64,000 nucleotides of DNA, taken from the NCBI GenBank assembly GCA_021847835.1, contig JAJZPR010000008.1:48663-112662 (forward strand). The letters are read 5' to 3'. This document shows positions 54,135 to 64,000 of this stretch, in pieces (position 1 is the first letter of the stretch; the number at the start of each line of letters is the position of its first letter). Both the position numbers and the translations under genes were made by a program. Under the pieces are notes generated by a model. The model did no database searches, had not been told where the DNA came from, and saw only the letters and a list, made by a program, of their open reading frames with translations. Source of the DNA: Pseudomonadota bacterium. GTDB taxonomy: Bacteria > Pseudomonadota > Gammaproteobacteria > Burkholderiales > Thiobacillaceae.

Positions 54135-55697
<1,563 letters not shown>

Positions 55698-56470: not shown

Positions 56471-57058
56471 ATGTCCAGGAAGGCTAATTATCGCACGGGT
56501 GAGTCCATCCCGAATGGGGTCTCGCAGGGTATCGGCACACTGCATTTTCACCGGCCTGTCCGCACTTGCAATTTTACCTGCGTGGCCGCGGGGTTTCTGT
56601 TTGCAGGCGGCTGTCTTTTCTCTCCACTCGCCACCGCCGCGACGACGGGAGAGGTGACGATCACCGGTAACGTGCCGATCGCCTGCGACCTGCTGGTACA
56701 GCAGGAAGCGGGCGCCGACAACATTCCCGACATTTCCGCCGGCCATACCAACCGACATGTTGCCACGGTGACTGAAACCTGCAATAGCCCCGACGGTTAT
56801 ACCGTCACCGTGACGGGCTCCAATGCGGGCGATCACACCGGCATGTTCGTCGATATCGTCAGTTCCGATTCGCACCCGTTCACCATTCGCTACAACGGTA
56901 TTTCGGTACCGCCCGGTGGTATCGTTACCGACAGCACCGCACCCGCCTTCGAGGTGAAAAAGAATGTCGATATCACCTATCCGGCGGATGAAACGCTTTC
57001 CGGTAGCGTGGCCAACACCTACGAAGAAACGCTCACGTTCACCATTTCGGCCAGGTAG
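56471..57058 (+). CDS. secreted fimbrial subunit-like protein
   Basis: Signal segment ...FLFAGGCLFSPLATAATTGEVTITGNVPIACDLLV...; two conserved-looking Cys; first gene of chaperone-usher operon. Confidence 0.6.
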   Translation: MSRKANYRTGESIPNGVSQGIGTLHFHRPVRTCNFTCVAAGFLFAGGCLFSPLATAATTGEVTITGNVPIACDLLVQQEAGADNIPDISAGHTNRHVATVTETCNSPDGYTVTVTGSNAGDHTGMFVDIVSSDSHPFTIRYNGISVPPGGIVTDSTAPAFEVKKNVDITYPADETLSGSVANTYEETLTFTISAR

Positions 57059-57067
57059 GGGGTTCCC

Positions 57068-57814
57068 ATGCGAAAACTATTTTTCGTTTTTGTCCTGATG
57101 CTTTCCGTAGTGGTCGTACAGGAAGCCCATGCCTTCCGTTTCTCGCCGTTCCGGGTCAAGTTCGAACCGTCCGGCGCGGGCGCCAACCAGCTTTTCACCG
57201 TCGAAAATAATACGAGCGCGCCGGCGTCGGTCCAGATTCGCATCGTGACGCGCGAAATGGATGTCGACGGCGGCGAGAAGAATACCGACGCCGAGAAGGA
57301 TTTCGCGATTTACCCGGCACAGATGGTGCTCAAGCCGCACGCCAAACGCTCGGTGCGCGTCCAGTGGATGGGCGATCCCGGGCTCAAGGAAGAAAAGGCC
57401 TACCGCATCATCGCCGAGCAATTGCCGGTCAATCTCGACAAGGAGAAACCCAAAACCAGCGCCGTCAAATTTCTTGTCACCTATCGCGGCGCGCTGTTCG
57501 TCACGCCGCCCGGTCTGGCGCACAACGTCACGCTCGACTTCTCCGGCACGACGCAGGACGCGACCGGCAGAAAGATGCTGGAGATCGTGCTGCACAACCG
57601 CGGTACCCAGCATGCCCTGCTGCGTAACCTGAAACTCGACATCAAGGACGACAAGGGCAACAGCGTCAGTCTCGCCGGGGAGAACCAGCTCAAGGGCGTC
57701 ACCGGCGAAGGCATTCTGGCCAAGCACCGGCGGCGATTCCTGATCCCGCGGCCCGAGGGGCTTGCCGGCAAAGTGAAGCAGATCGATTTCACGTTTGACA
57801 AGCAGGCGTTCTAG
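57068..57814 (+). CDS. periplasmic fimbrial chaperone
   Basis: Signal peptide; FRFSPFRVKFEPSGAGANQLFTVENNTSAPASVQIRIVTRE; FAIYPAQMVLKPHAKRSVRVQW. Confidence 0.85.
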   Translation: MRKLFFVFVLMLSVVVVQEAHAFRFSPFRVKFEPSGAGANQLFTVENNTSAPASVQIRIVTREMDVDGGEKNTDAEKDFAIYPAQMVLKPHAKRSVRVQWMGDPGLKEEKAYRIIAEQLPVNLDKEKPKTSAVKFLVTYRGALFVTPPGLAHNVTLDFSGTTQDATGRKMLEIVLHNRGTQHALLRNLKLDIKDDKGNSVSLAGENQLKGVTGEGILAKHRRRFLIPRPEGLAGKVKQIDFTFDKQAF

Positions 57815-60308
57815 ATGGCGGCGCCCGGTGACAACGGCCCGAATCTTTTTTGCCCGGCTCGGCCTGGCGTGCTGGATATTCCCCTGCGCCGGTAGCCTGG
57901 CCGCCGAGTTCCCGCCCAACGAGGCCGTGCCGATTTCGGTACCGCTCTATCTGGAGCAGCGCCAGGTGGGCATGGCGCAGATGCTCATCATGCCGGACGC
58001 GGCGGAAAGCTATGTGCAGGCCGCGCCGGTGTTGGCGCTGCTGAAAGATCGGGTGCCGGAAGAAAAGTTGAAGGCCCTGGAAGCCGTCGTCGCGCAAGGT
58101 TTTATCATCTTGAAAGACGGAGCGAAGGGCGGCATCGAGTTGCGCTTCGATGAAGCGCGGATTGCGCTTGTCGTCGCCATCCCGTCGGAAAGCAAGAAAC
58201 TGCGATCGCTGCGGGCGCGGCGCGATTTCGACGTCGCCAACAGGACCATCACGCCGCCCAGCGCGGTGTCGGCCTATCTCAACATCTTCGGCGCGCAGGA
58301 TTACGTCAACAGAGGCCGGTCGCCACAGGACGAAGGGCGGCAGCCGTTTCGCCTGAGCGCGGACGGCGCGGTGAACCTGAGCGGCTGGGTGCTGGAAACC
58401 AGCGGCGATTATATCGAGAGCGATTCGCGTCCGTGGCAGCGCGGCGACACGCGGCTGGTGCACGACCTGCCGGACGACAGGATCCGCACGGCGCTGGGCG
58501 ACCTCTCGTACCCGGTCGAGGGTTTCCAGAGTTTCCAGCCCATGCTCGGCCTGACGGTGGCGCGCAATTTCGATTTGCAGCCCTACCGTATTTCGGAGCC
58601 GACGGGCCGGACGTCCTTTTTCCTCGTTTCACCTTCGCGCGTGGATATCTACGTCAATGACCGCAAGGTGCAGACCTTGCAGCTCAGCTCCGGTCCCTAT
58701 GACATGACCGATTTCCCGGTCGTTAACGGCAGCAACAACGTCAAACTGGTTATCACCGATGCGACCGGGCGCGTGGAGGTCCGATATTTCGATATCGTCA
58801 GCGACACCAATCTGCTGGCCGCCGGATTGCACAAGTTCGCCTACAATGCCGGTGTCATCTCCACTACCGTGAACCGGGAACGGAAATACGATTCCGACCG
58901 ACCGGTCCTGTCGGTCTTTCACCGTTATGGCGTGAGCGACAGCCTCACGCTGGGCGGCAATCTGCAGGCCGATCGGATGCAACGGATGGCCGGCGTCGAT
59001 GCGACCGTGGGCGGCAAATGGGGCGTCTTGCGTGCCGACCTGGCCGGCAGCCATATCGAGGACGGTGACGACGGTTTCGCGTGGCAGGCGCAGTATCAGA
59101 TCATCTCTCGGGGTAGAACCGGGGAGGACGGCGGGTTCCGGGGAACCCGGAATTTCACGCTGCTGGCCAGCTATCGCAGCGAACATTTCGCGCCGCTCGG
59201 CGTGTTGCAACCAGCCAACGTCTGGTCTCATCAGGTCACCGCGCGTTACAGTCAGCAATGGTCGCCGACGGTCAGTCTCGGTATCGGCGGCGGCTACAAG
59301 GTGGGCCGCGCGGACCAACGCGACGACTGGAATTATTCCCTGTCGTTCAGCAAGCGACTGTCAGCCGGCATCCACCTTAGTGTCAATCTCCAAGAGCGCG
59401 CCACCGAGGGTCATGGCATCTTCGTGAGTCTTGGCTGGACGCCGCGGGACTCGCGCCACTCGGTCCACGGCAGCCATGACAGCTTCAGCAAGACGACGCG
59501 CGCCGACTGGAACTACGCGCAGGAAGGACGCGCGCAAAGCGTGAGCGCCTCGGCCGGCATCGTGCGCGCGCAAGACCGCTATGACGGCAGCGGCCGTGTC
59601 ACCTATTACGGTCAGCGCGGCGAAGTGACGGCCGCTCACGATATCGTCACACCGTTCGGCGATGGCTCGTCGGATGCGACCGAATCCCGCAGTGAGCTGC
59701 GCTTTGCCTCGGCCCTGGTTTATGCCGGCGGGCACGTGGCGCTGTCGCGGCCGGTCAGCAACAGTTTTGCGATCTTCGCGCCCGATGCGTCGATCCGGGA
59801 TTATCCCATCGGGGTCAATCCGCGGGGCCTCCGCAGCGAAGAGCGCACGTACGAAGCTACTACTGATCGTTGGGGTCCGATCGTGCTGCCGAATCTGACA
59901 CCCTATCTCTACCGCACGGTACGGGTCGACGCGAGCCGCCTGCCGCCCGGTTTTGACGCCGGCGAGGGGATATATACGTTTTATCCCACCTACCGCAGCG
60001 GCACGTTCGTGCGCCTCGGAAGCGACGCCAACGTGTTGCTCGACGGCACGTTGCAATACAAGGACCAGACGCCGGTGGCACTACGGGCAGGAAGCATAAG
60101 TCGCGTTGGCGAACCGGACGCCGCTCCTGAAACGTTCTTTACCAACCGCGCCGGCCGCTTCCGCATCGAAAAACTGAAACCGGGTCGCTATGTCATGCAG
60201 CTTTACAGCCTTCCCGGCGTCACGCTTTCGCTGACGATTCCTGAAGACGCGGCGGGGCCGGTGCAGGCGGGAATATTAACGCTCCCCGTCACGGTGGAGG
60301 AACCGTAG
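57795..60308 (+). CDS. outer-membrane fimbrial usher (translation may start at GTG 57828)
   Basis: 837 aa; DYIESDSRPWQRGDTRLVHDLPDDRIRTALGDLSYPVEGFQSFQPMLGLTVARNFDLQPY; PSRVDIYVNDRKVQTLQLSSGPYDMTDFPVVNGSNNVKLVITD. Confidence 0.88.
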   Translation: MTSRRSRWRRPVTTARIFFARLGLACWIFPCAGSLAAEFPPNEAVPISVPLYLEQRQVGMAQMLIMPDAAESYVQAAPVLALLKDRVPEEKLKALEAVVAQGFIILKDGAKGGIELRFDEARIALVVAIPSESKKLRSLRARRDFDVANRTITPPSAVSAYLNIFGAQDYVNRGRSPQDEGRQPFRLSADGAVNLSGWVLETSGDYIESDSRPWQRGDTRLVHDLPDDRIRTALGDLSYPVEGFQSFQPMLGLTVARNFDLQPYRISEPTGRTSFFLVSPSRVDIYVNDRKVQTLQLSSGPYDMTDFPVVNGSNNVKLVITDATGRVEVRYFDIVSDTNLLAAGLHKFAYNAGVISTTVNRERKYDSDRPVLSVFHRYGVSDSLTLGGNLQADRMQRMAGVDATVGGKWGVLRADLAGSHIEDGDDGFAWQAQYQIISRGRTGEDGGFRGTRNFTLLASYRSEHFAPLGVLQPANVWSHQVTARYSQQWSPTVSLGIGGGYKVGRADQRDDWNYSLSFSKRLSAGIHLSVNLQERATEGHGIFVSLGWTPRDSRHSVHGSHDSFSKTTRADWNYAQEGRAQSVSASAGIVRAQDRYDGSGRVTYYGQRGEVTAAHDIVTPFGDGSSDATESRSELRFASALVYAGGHVALSRPVSNSFAIFAPDASIRDYPIGVNPRGLRSEERTYEATTDRWGPIVLPNLTPYLYRTVRVDASRLPPGFDAGEGIYTFYPTYRSGTFVRLGSDANVLLDGTLQYKDQTPVALRAGSISRVGEPDAAPETFFTNRAGRFRIEKLKPGRYVMQLYSLPGVTLSLTIPEDAAGPVQAGILTLPVTVEEP

Positions 60309-60311
60309 CCC

Positions 60312-61280
60312 ATGAAACGCCTGATTGTTTTTCTCGGCCTGTCCTTGCTGCTTCCGCACGAAGCCCATGCGCTCTGCGTCAATCTGGCTTTCGGCGGCGC
60401 GCCGTCGCTCGCGGCCTTCGAAGGCGGCAGCGGCGGCTACGCGGTCTACGATCCGCAGGAATACCTGCAAACCGTGAGCTTCGAGGTGCGCGGCGAGGCG
60501 ACCGGCGCGACCTGCGAGTACTTCGTGACGCTGAGCACCGGACAATCGGGCGATTTCAACCAGCGCAAATTGGCGGAGACGACGAACAGGCTGAACTACA
60601 ACGCCTATACGGACAGCGGCAAGAGCAGCATCTTCAAGGCGCCGCCGACCGCGACGCAAAGCGAAGTCATCGCCGGCAGTTTCCCCGTGGCCGTCGCGTT
60701 GACCCAGACAAATACGCATAAATTTTACTGGACGGTCGATCCGCAGCAGGTGGTCCCGGCCGCCGGCACGCCATATACCGATGGCAATCTGACGCTCAGC
60801 CTCTATAGCGGCCAGTTGCTTCTCAGTCCCAAGCTGGAGGCCAGCAAAACCATCACGTTCCAGGCGCGCGTGGATAGCAGCGTCGATGTTTCGCTGGTCG
60901 AATCCGGCAAGCGCTTCGACATCGGCGAAACGACGCAACTCATCGATTTCGGCACGCTGGAAAGCGGCGAGCAGCGCGGCTTTGACGTGGTGGTGCGCAG
61001 CAACGACGGCTACGTCGTGACGATGCAATCGCAGAACCAACAGTTCCTGGTGCATTCACGCGCACCCGCGATAAGGGATACCGTTTCCTACAGCGTCATC
61101 TTCAACGGCGGCGGCGTCGATCTTTCGACCGGCGCACCCGTGCAGATTATCACGGGCACCGGCACCACGCCCGCGACCGGTATGTCCTTCCCCATCGAAT
61201 TCACCGTCGGCACACTGTCTGGCAATGAAGTTGCCGGATCGTATTCCGATATTATTTATGTTGAAGTCGCCGCGAATTGA
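60312..61280 (+). CDS. two-domain fimbrial subunit / putative tip adhesin
   Basis: Signal peptide LIVFLGLSLLLPHEAHA; C-terminal pilin-like TFQARVDSSVDVSLV...YSDIIYVEVAAN; last gene of operon. Confidence 0.55.
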   Translation: MKRLIVFLGLSLLLPHEAHALCVNLAFGGAPSLAAFEGGSGGYAVYDPQEYLQTVSFEVRGEATGATCEYFVTLSTGQSGDFNQRKLAETTNRLNYNAYTDSGKSSIFKAPPTATQSEVIAGSFPVAVALTQTNTHKFYWTVDPQQVVPAAGTPYTDGNLTLSLYSGQLLLSPKLEASKTITFQARVDSSVDVSLVESGKRFDIGETTQLIDFGTLESGEQRGFDVVVRSNDGYVVTMQSQNQQFLVHSRAPAIRDTVSYSVIFNGGGVDLSTGAPVQIITGTGTTPATGMSFPIEFTVGTLSGNEVAGSYSDIIYVEVAAN

Positions 61281-61452: not shown

Positions 61453-61785
61453 TCAACCGATGGCCAGCTTGACCGGTTTGCCAACGCGGCTGAGCATTTC
61501 CACCAGCGCGTCGATGGTGAACTTGGCCGTTTTCTTGTTCACCACGTCGGACACGCGTGGACGCGAAACCATCAGGATTTCGGCCGCTTCGGCTTGCTTC
61601 AGGTGATGCTCGGCAATCCAGGTGGACAGCTCGTCCATCAACTGCTGCTTCAGCAATTGGGTGTCTTTGATCTGCTTGCGAGAGGCTGCCTGCAAGCGCT
61701 TGGCCTCAGCGGGCGCGAAGCCAAGCTCCAGGAAGAGGTTCGCTCCTGGCTTCGTCACATGGCGGATTTCGGTGTCGATCTTCAT
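61453..61785 (-). CDS. Xre-family antitoxin (HTH)
   Basis: LSTWIAEHHLKQAEAAEILMVSRPRVSDVVNKKTAKFTIDALVEMLSRVGKPV. Confidence 0.88.
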   Translation of the reverse strand: MKIDTEIRHVTKPGANLFLELGFAPAEAKRLQAASRKQIKDTQLLKQQLMDELSTWIAEHHLKQAEAAEILMVSRPRVSDVVNKKTAKFTIDALVEMLSRVGKPVKLAIG

Positions 61786-62129
61786 TTCTGTGCCTTTCTT
61801 GCATTGACCACGGCACGATAGCGCGCCTCGGCAATGCCCTTGTCCTGCTTGCTGGTTGCCTGAGTCTTCTTCTGGAAGCAGTGCAGGACATATACGGCTT
61901 CCTCGAACTTGGCGACGTACATCACCCGATAGATGCCGCTGGCCTCCCGAATGCGGATTTCCCTGGCGCCGGCCCCGACATCATCGAACGGCTTCCAGTC
62001 ATCCGGATCCAAACCAACTTGGACCTTGCCCAACTGGAAACCAGCGGAGCGACGTGGGTCGTCCGGGAATGCCAACAAGTCGTCGTAGGCGGAACCCACC
62101 CAGCGAATCTCTTTTTCGTCGCTCATCAC
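61782..62129 (-). CDS. RelE/HigB-like (phage Gp49-like) toxin
   Basis: IRWVGSAYDDLLAFPDDPRRSAGFQLGKVQVGLDPDDWKPFDDVGAGAREIRIREASGIYRVMYVAKFEEAVYVLHCFQKKTQ; 4-bp overlap with antitoxin gene. Confidence 0.9.
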   Translation of the reverse strand: MMSDEKEIRWVGSAYDDLLAFPDDPRRSAGFQLGKVQVGLDPDDWKPFDDVGAGAREIRIREASGIYRVMYVAKFEEAVYVLHCFQKKTQATSKQDKGIAEARYRAVVNARKAQK

Positions 62130-62347: not shown

Positions 62348-63059
62348 GGCTTGAGCACCAGCAGCCCGTCGGCCGAGCGGGATACCCAAGCTCGGGCGCT
62401 GCCGGTCGGCAGATGCGCGGCATCCAGCTTGGTGGCCCAGGGCAGGGCGAGTTCGCGCCCGAGCTGCAGGCACAGGCGCACCGTCTTTACGCTGGTGCAG
62501 CGCTGCAGCAAGTCACGCATTACATCGGTACGTAGGCCATAGGCGCTCTCGGCGAGTTCGCGCGCCTCCTGCAGCGGCTGACGCACGCCTACCTCGCTGA
62601 GCACCTCCAAGAGCGCGCGCTCGGGTGTCGAGACCCGAGGCGCGCCGTCGCGCTTCTCGAACGGTCCGGCATGAAGCGGATCGGCTTGCGGTGGTACTCC
62701 ACCGGGAAGCGCTCGGTGAACCAGCCGGGGAGGCGGACGGTTGTCCAGCCGTAGAGATGCAGAATGGACTGTTGCGATAGATACTGCCGCACACCGTACC
62801 AGTCGAGGGCCGACTTGCCGCCGACATGCAGGCCTTCGACGGAGCGCTGCATCAGGATCAGACAGGCATGGAGATCCAGCATATCGTTAGGGCGGCGGTA
62901 CACCCCGCGTGCCAAGCGGGAAAGCCATCCGGCGCGCGCGTAGTGGACGGCCAGGTCCGCGGAGACGCCCAATGCCGCCAAGTCCTTCGACGTCAAGGGG
63001 GTTCCCGGTGCCTACTGCCGGTAGAGGGAATTTAGCTTGGTTCTTTCAGTCGTAGCCAT
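62344..63059 (-). pseudogene. AbiEi-type antitoxin, inactivated by nonsense codon and 1-nt frameshift
   Basis: MATTERTKLNSLYRQ*APGTPLTSKDLAALGVSADLAVHYARAGWLSRLARGVYRRPND...LHVGGKSALDWYGVRQYLSQQSILHLYGWTTVRLPGWFTERFP...[frameshift ~62660]...EKRDGAPRVSTPERALLEVLSEVGVRQPLQEARELAES...LLVLKP. Confidence 0.85.
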
Positions 63060-63132: not shown

Positions 63133-63368
63133 TAACGCAAAATAATCCAAATTTTCAGGTTGATTGGCTCGCAGCGCTCATTGACGATTGATGAGCTGGA
63201 GTAGCCGCCGCGCAAACCGAGTCCATCTCCCGCGCCAGCAAAAGCTCGTTTTTAGACGGTAAAAGTGACGGTAAATTATGATGATGAGAACAACGAAAGT
63301 TAGTATTTATACGGGTTTCCGGCCATCGGAAACAATCGAATGGGAATGACTCCATCAGCAGGGTAAGG

Positions 63369-63416: not shown

Positions 63417-63444
63417 ATTTAACATAATATACATTATGTGCATA
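63417..63444 (-). other. dif: dif (XerCD) recombination site
   Basis: Minus-strand TATGCACATAATGTATATTATGTTAAAT vs remembered E. coli dif GGTGCGCATAATGTATATTATGTTAAAT: 25/28, with identical central region and XerD half. Confidence 0.85.
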
Positions 63445-63578: not shown

Positions 63579-64000
63579 TCAAAAATATTTTTTGTAAAAC
63601 TGCCACTGAACCCGTGTGGACACCGCAAAAACTAGCGCTAACGGTGCAATGACCCAGAACGGACTCATTGCAACCGGCAGGCAGAGATATAGCGTGACCC
63701 CGGATGCGAAGAACATCAGCTTCGCGAGGCGCCCAATTTTGTGCAGATCCGCCGATTCGCGTCCTGCGCACGCGCGGCGGATATAACGCTCAGTCAGGCC
63801 GTCTACGCCAGCCAAGACATACAACAGGAAAAACAAAGGGGTCGCAGCCAGTACGAAGCCAATCCTGATCCCGTAGACCTGAATCACGTTCATAGCCAGG
63901 TAGATTTCCCGTGCATTGCGCGCAACGAACTGGCTGAGGTACATCCGGTCAACCTCGTTGACCGGATACCCGGAGAAATAGGCATAGGTGGCTTCATGGA
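63579..64000 (-). CDS. DUF4400/ICE-type integrating conjugative element membrane protein (N-terminus outside window)
   Basis: HEATYAYFSGYPVNEVDRMYLSQFVARNAREIYLAMNVIQVYGIRIGFVLAATPLFFLLYVLAGVDGLTERYIRRACAGRESADLHKIGRLAKLMFFASGVTLYLCLPVAMSPFWVIAPLALVFAV; hydrophobic, resembles ICE TIGR03747-like proteins. Confidence 0.7.
   Translation of the reverse strand, partial: HEATYAYFSGYPVNEVDRMYLSQFVARNAREIYLAMNVIQVYGIRIGFVLAATPLFFLLYVLAGVDGLTERYIRRACAGRESADLHKIGRLAKLMFFASGVTLYLCLPVAMSPFWVIAPLALVFAVSTRVQWQFYKKYF

Follow-up and report, generated by a model that had tools for sequence, protein, structure and literature searches.

Among the described chaperone-usher systems compared here, the Csu operon of Acinetobacter baumannii (csuA/B-A-B-C-D-E, L038) has three pilin genes ahead of its chaperone, usher and tip genes. 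In its chaperone CsuC, the residues Arg89, Tyr196 and Arg174 together anchor the C-terminus of the subunit. Among chaperones, Arg89 has been reported for none but the archaic and alternative types (PMC4654587). A tip subunit typically has two domains, the C-terminal one pilin-like, and is encoded last in its operon, as in CsuE (PMC9452303). For archaic pilins, a twin-hairpin fold has been described (PMC9452303). Plasmids of Acinetobacter (L030, L031), Paraburkholderia (L032) and Enterobacter (L028) carry four-gene SCPU operons. The Synechocystis proteins CccS/CccP/Slr0019, which comprise an SCPU subunit, a PapD chaperone and an usher, have been classed with the chaperone-usher systems (PMC4390875). 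The broad sigma group as published takes in cyanobacterial and alphaproteobacterial ushers.

The window analysed here is a stretch of 64,000 nucleotides from a metagenome-assembled genome (MAG) of the Thiobacillaceae. An ORF check of the window finds four adjacent genes on the + strand, encoding a secreted subunit, a PapD-type chaperone, an usher and a two-domain secreted protein:

56471..57058, + strand: secreted major pilin candidate; ATG start, 195 aa; profile match to the pilins of its own clade
57068..57814, + strand: PapD-type periplasmic chaperone; PF00345 (PapD_N), 5e-11
57795..60308, + strand: outer-membrane usher, start at TTG 57795 or GTG 57828; PF00577, 2e-21
60312..61280, + strand: two-domain secreted subunit, probable tip; 322 aa; PF05229 (SCPU), 6e-8, residues 65-157

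The pilin and chaperone genes are separated by 9 nt and the usher and tip genes by 3 nt. The chaperone and usher genes overlap by 20 nt with the TTG 57795 start and are 13 nt apart with the GTG 57828 start, which gives the more ordinary usher signal peptide. A PapD-type chaperone, a PF00577 usher and a secreted subunit within one operon place the locus in the chaperone-usher pathway. The gene order is repeated in three MAG relatives, a groundwater gammaproteobacterium (L015, usher 83% identical), a Gallionella (L016, 73%) and L017 (59%), whose contig stops within the usher gene. Since the order is conserved at 59-83% identity, the arrangement is not a matter of chance. The frames, order and tight spacing are all as described in an earlier note on this DNA, which had proposed a compact four-gene chaperone-usher operon. 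A Pfam search of the host genome found no second usher and no second SCPU protein. No paper in the literature searched connects chaperone-usher systems with Gallionella.

There is good reason to regard the locus as a minimal chaperone-usher operon with all its genes intact, which probably encodes a thin adhesive fibre, whose machinery forms a deep lineage of its own next to the archaic systems of the Csu type and which was acquired horizontally on a guaA island. The pilin and the tip subunit would be exported by Sec, held in the periplasm by the chaperone and handed to the usher, which would secrete the polymer with the two-domain subunit at its tip. The product is probably a thin adhesive fibre on the cell surface, and the system very likely works like the Csu type in outline.

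The operon could also be an ordinary but divergent archaic (sigma) operon of the Csu type, with assembly as by CsuC and CsuD, although this seems rather unlikely. The subunit-chaperone-usher-tip order is common to both systems, both have an SCPU-type tip domain, and neither usher has a PapC_N match. The plasmid SCPU operons introduced above have an order identical to that of the window, which also favors this alternative; their ushers, however, group with CsuD and carry a cysteine pair, unlike the window usher. The window has one pilin gene whereas Csu has three, and the window pilin is not recognised as SCPU.

The chaperone gives evidence on both sides. In a PDB sequence search its best solved relatives are CsuC (1e-4) and EcpB (3e-3), and the equivalents of CsuC Pro59 and Arg89 are both present, the latter as expected for the archaic type. 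In contrast, the Tyr196 and Arg174 part of the CsuC carboxylate anchor is not conserved. The alignment has indels in this region; as aligned, the window chaperone has a Gly/Asn region with no Tyr near the first site and Leu at the position of Arg174. The Tyr is present in 9 of 9 aligned Csu/SCPU/alpha chaperones. In the sphingomonad and Vibrionaceae members of the clade the chaperone Arg89 is also mostly lost. The anchor of classical chaperones is not found either; the window branch has an Arg8-like residue, but Lys112 is absent. The Vibrio and Photobacterium members (L025, L022) have two different chaperone genes next to each other, ahead of the usher gene.

A set of 58 ushers was gathered for phylogenetic placement, comprising FimD, HtrE, YehB, YbgQ, FaeD, PefC, an Afa-like usher, EcpC, CsuD and the plasmid SCPU ushers, the rest being matches in the relatives and in searches across the order and the phylum. 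The main tree is unrooted and contains 55 of them; EcpC, L004 and L052 were omitted because of their long branches, and an earlier tree that included these three is superseded. The window usher lies in a separate 23-member clade (support 100/100, stem 1.04) that includes Leptolyngbya (on a cyanobacterial plasmid), Azospirillaceae, sphingomonads and Vibrionaceae. A 99/98 split places the classical ushers together with the Csu lineage opposite this clade. The chaperone tree has the same grouping; a 99/98 split sets it apart from the Csu/SCPU chaperones, and EcpB and EcpE join the window clade via a long branch. In an AU test, a topology with the Csu lineage and the window clade as one group was not rejected (p 0.073), and this speaks for the Csu-type alternative. 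Since this value does not quite reject the Csu grouping, the safe statement is that the usher/chaperone lineage is a deep branch of, or sister to, the archaic sigma group. The earlier note could not name a clade, and the window usher does not fall inside a well-described one with matching layout, with the reservation that the AU result is borderline and that some named sigma systems are absent from the set.

The usher itself also differs from CsuD. The C-terminal (CTD2) cysteine pair is present in all non-clade ushers (34 of 34, among them EcpC) and is missing in 22 of the 23 complete clade ushers, L052 being the exception; the mature chain of the window usher contains no cysteine at all. PapC_C is matched by CsuD and the Paraburkholderia usher, but not by the clade ushers tested, including that of the window, or by the Acinetobacter variabilis usher. 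Of 24 clade ushers, 15 contain the motif FT(N/S)(R/K)xGxF, which none of the other ushers has. The features of a classical usher (grouping with FimD, HtrE, YehB and FaeD, a PapC_N match and four cysteines) are not seen. Membership of the alternative (alpha) type is not indicated, as EcpC, the sole alpha usher tested, is on a very long separate branch; the clade usher profile gave no EcpC match at 1e-5. A PDB sequence search with the usher returned nothing. Other families of the order to which the window belongs have a second, unnamed usher lineage (L054, L056, L002, L012, L055, L057-L059); it adjoins the window clade (98/92) and keeps the cysteine pair.

The operon is therefore not filed as Csu-type, because the anchor feature tested is lacking and the placement in the tree is unsettled. 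The archaic/Csu style suggested in the earlier note holds in the broad sense, since the system is non-classical and SCPU-like with a chaperone Arg89, but not in the narrow sense, since its usher and chaperone fall outside the CsuD/CsuC lineage and two of the three carboxylate-anchor residues of CsuC are not conserved. It is conceivable, if doubtful, that the clade is a separate non-classical class beside the archaic and alternative ones, with a cysteine-free usher, a different hold on the subunit C-terminus and horizontal spread across Proteobacteria and Cyanobacteria. Parts of the clade may already be inside 'sigma' in the literature. A cysteine-free usher next to a chaperone that lacks two of the three anchor residues makes the generality of the published archaic mechanism directly testable.

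The nearest named clade members are Leptolyngbya BL0902, Indioceanicola, Niveispirillum, Qipengyuania and Vibrio plasmids, with ushers 27-35% identical to that of the window. Gene order is similar in most of these loci, which have one to three subunit genes and sometimes two chaperones. Leptolyngbya lacks an adjacent tip gene, and the pilin and tip genes are downstream in Indioceanicola. By description, the window system also resembles Synechocystis CccS/CccP/Slr0019 in combining an SCPU subunit, a PapD chaperone and an usher.

The pilin has no match in Pfam or NCBIfam. A profile of the window pilins matches the pilins of its own usher clade (97.6%), which in turn match the SCPU pilins (96.6%); the direct match between window and SCPU pilins is weak, so that the link runs through the pilins of the clade. 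The profile comparison gave no match of the pilin to FimA-type pilins. The mature chain of about 139 aa, from 56639, has one likely disulphide (C16-C48). AlphaFold2 models of the mature pilin and the mature tip protein, each with 3-4 homologues, were unusable (pLDDT 37.5 and 29.2, respectively). For this reason, what is known of the pathway is the basis for presuming an incomplete immunoglobulin fold and donor-strand assembly.

The earlier note had drawn attention to the long N-terminal leader of the pilin, which measures 56-57 aa. The leader is real, because the window and L015 share an AGGAG ribosome-binding site and an ATG ahead of a leader of 53-57 residues, with all indels in-frame. However, two of the three close relatives (L016 and L017) have pilins with ordinary signal peptides, so it does not characterise the system and was rejected as a key feature. 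It is a local extension of the pilin signal peptide. Two shorter starts were considered and rejected; GTG 56582 would leave no basic n-region, and for CTG 56540 the homologous position in L015 is not a start codon.

The tip protein has its SCPU domain in the N-terminal half and a pilin-like C-terminal part that ends GSYSDIIYVEV. A tip gene is in the equivalent position in L015, L016 and the plasmid relatives. A PDB sequence search with the tip protein gave chance matches only. The likely tip role that had been proposed for this two-domain protein is supported. The SCPU-type tip domain, together with the presence of just one pilin gene and the lack of distinct adaptor subunits, would also suit an amorphous or coat-like surface layer exported by the usher, as proposed for spore-coat SCPU proteins, instead of a pilus. 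This is improbable, since the window subunit, encoded last and with a pilin-like second domain, corresponds to the usual tip arrangement seen in CsuE (PMC9452303).

The operon, which is situated between guaA and dif, belongs to an island of 7.65 kb within the guaA 3' end. The features that delimit the island, and the gene pair it carries after the operon, are as follows:

55680..55697, + strand: guaA 3' end, left island junction; core GAATGGGA
61453-62129, - strand: toxin-antitoxin-like pair within the island, HTH_37 antitoxin and Gp49/DUF891 toxin
63332..63349, + strand: displaced copy of the guaA 3' end, right island junction; ACAATCGAATGGGAATGA, followed by the native guaA terminator
63418-63441: single dif-like site for chromosome dimer resolution, 24 nt, one mismatch to the consensus used

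In the same-genus genome G007, the end of guaA and the DNA that follows it align with the right junction at a score of 69, where shuffled sequences reached at most 28. Behind the displaced copy in the window stand dif and the native terminator of guaA; in G007 these come directly after guaA itself. The distance from guaA to dif is about 60 bp in G007 and about 9.4 kb in G006. The turning point of the cumulative GC skew, near 53-55 kb, places the pilus island at the replication terminus. The 3' end of guaA is a known integration site with the core GAGTGGGA already described (PMC9376610). Islands of the GIsul2 type are likewise found in the guaA 3' end at a GARTGGGA core (PMC9376610), but their cargo differs, and no integrase was identified in the window island. 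The DNA after guaA varies among same-genus genomes. With gene names read from the sequence, the region in G003 carries an integrase gene of the phage type together with conjugation genes resembling trb, and that in G006 a helicase/primase-like gene; the guaA island of G006 has a toxin gene 90% identical to that of the window and lacks the pilus. The accessory region assumed in the earlier note is thereby confirmed and pinned to this island. A point against the main reading is that the window is at a contig end of a MAG with a contamination of 7%, although its guaA is 97% identical to that of a same-genus genome.

The distribution of the operon is consistent with mobility. A search of 116 further genomes from the family gave no usher of the window subfamily, the best being 25-29% identical. 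GuaA is usually better conserved than surface proteins. The GuaA of the L015 host is only 69% identical to that of the window, compared with 83% for the usher and 84-89% for the other pilus proteins, with the pilin at 89%. For the L017 host the values are 56% for GuaA and 59-67% for the pilus proteins. Because the L015 GuaA (69%) is less similar than the pilus proteins (83-89%) when it would normally be better conserved, the simplest reading of these identities is that the operon arrived by horizontal transfer on the guaA island. The guaA-dif island would then be one route that moves such operons between distant hosts. It is very improbable that the operon is a functionless island remnant in decay: no integrase gene was identified in the 7.65-kb island, the neighbouring AbiEi-like frame matches mainly the N-terminal domain and the + strand has no sigma-70-like promoter, but the four frames are intact with 83-89% protein identity to L015 and a good ribosome-binding site precedes the pilin gene.

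Some minor observations concern the surroundings of the operon. The tRNA and Rfam searches gave no match near the locus. The AbiEi-like antitoxin frame (62589-62996, - strand) matches the N-terminal domain only and is followed by out-of-frame sequence; it is probably a broken gene. Past dif, a DUF4400 gene (63579-63944, - strand) is truncated by the contig end. Genes of this family are common in integrative conjugative elements, and there may be mobile DNA beyond the contig end. Repeats of the motif GACGGTA, possibly integrase arm sites, are found near the island end (63255-63275) and also after guaA in sister genomes (L064, L067).
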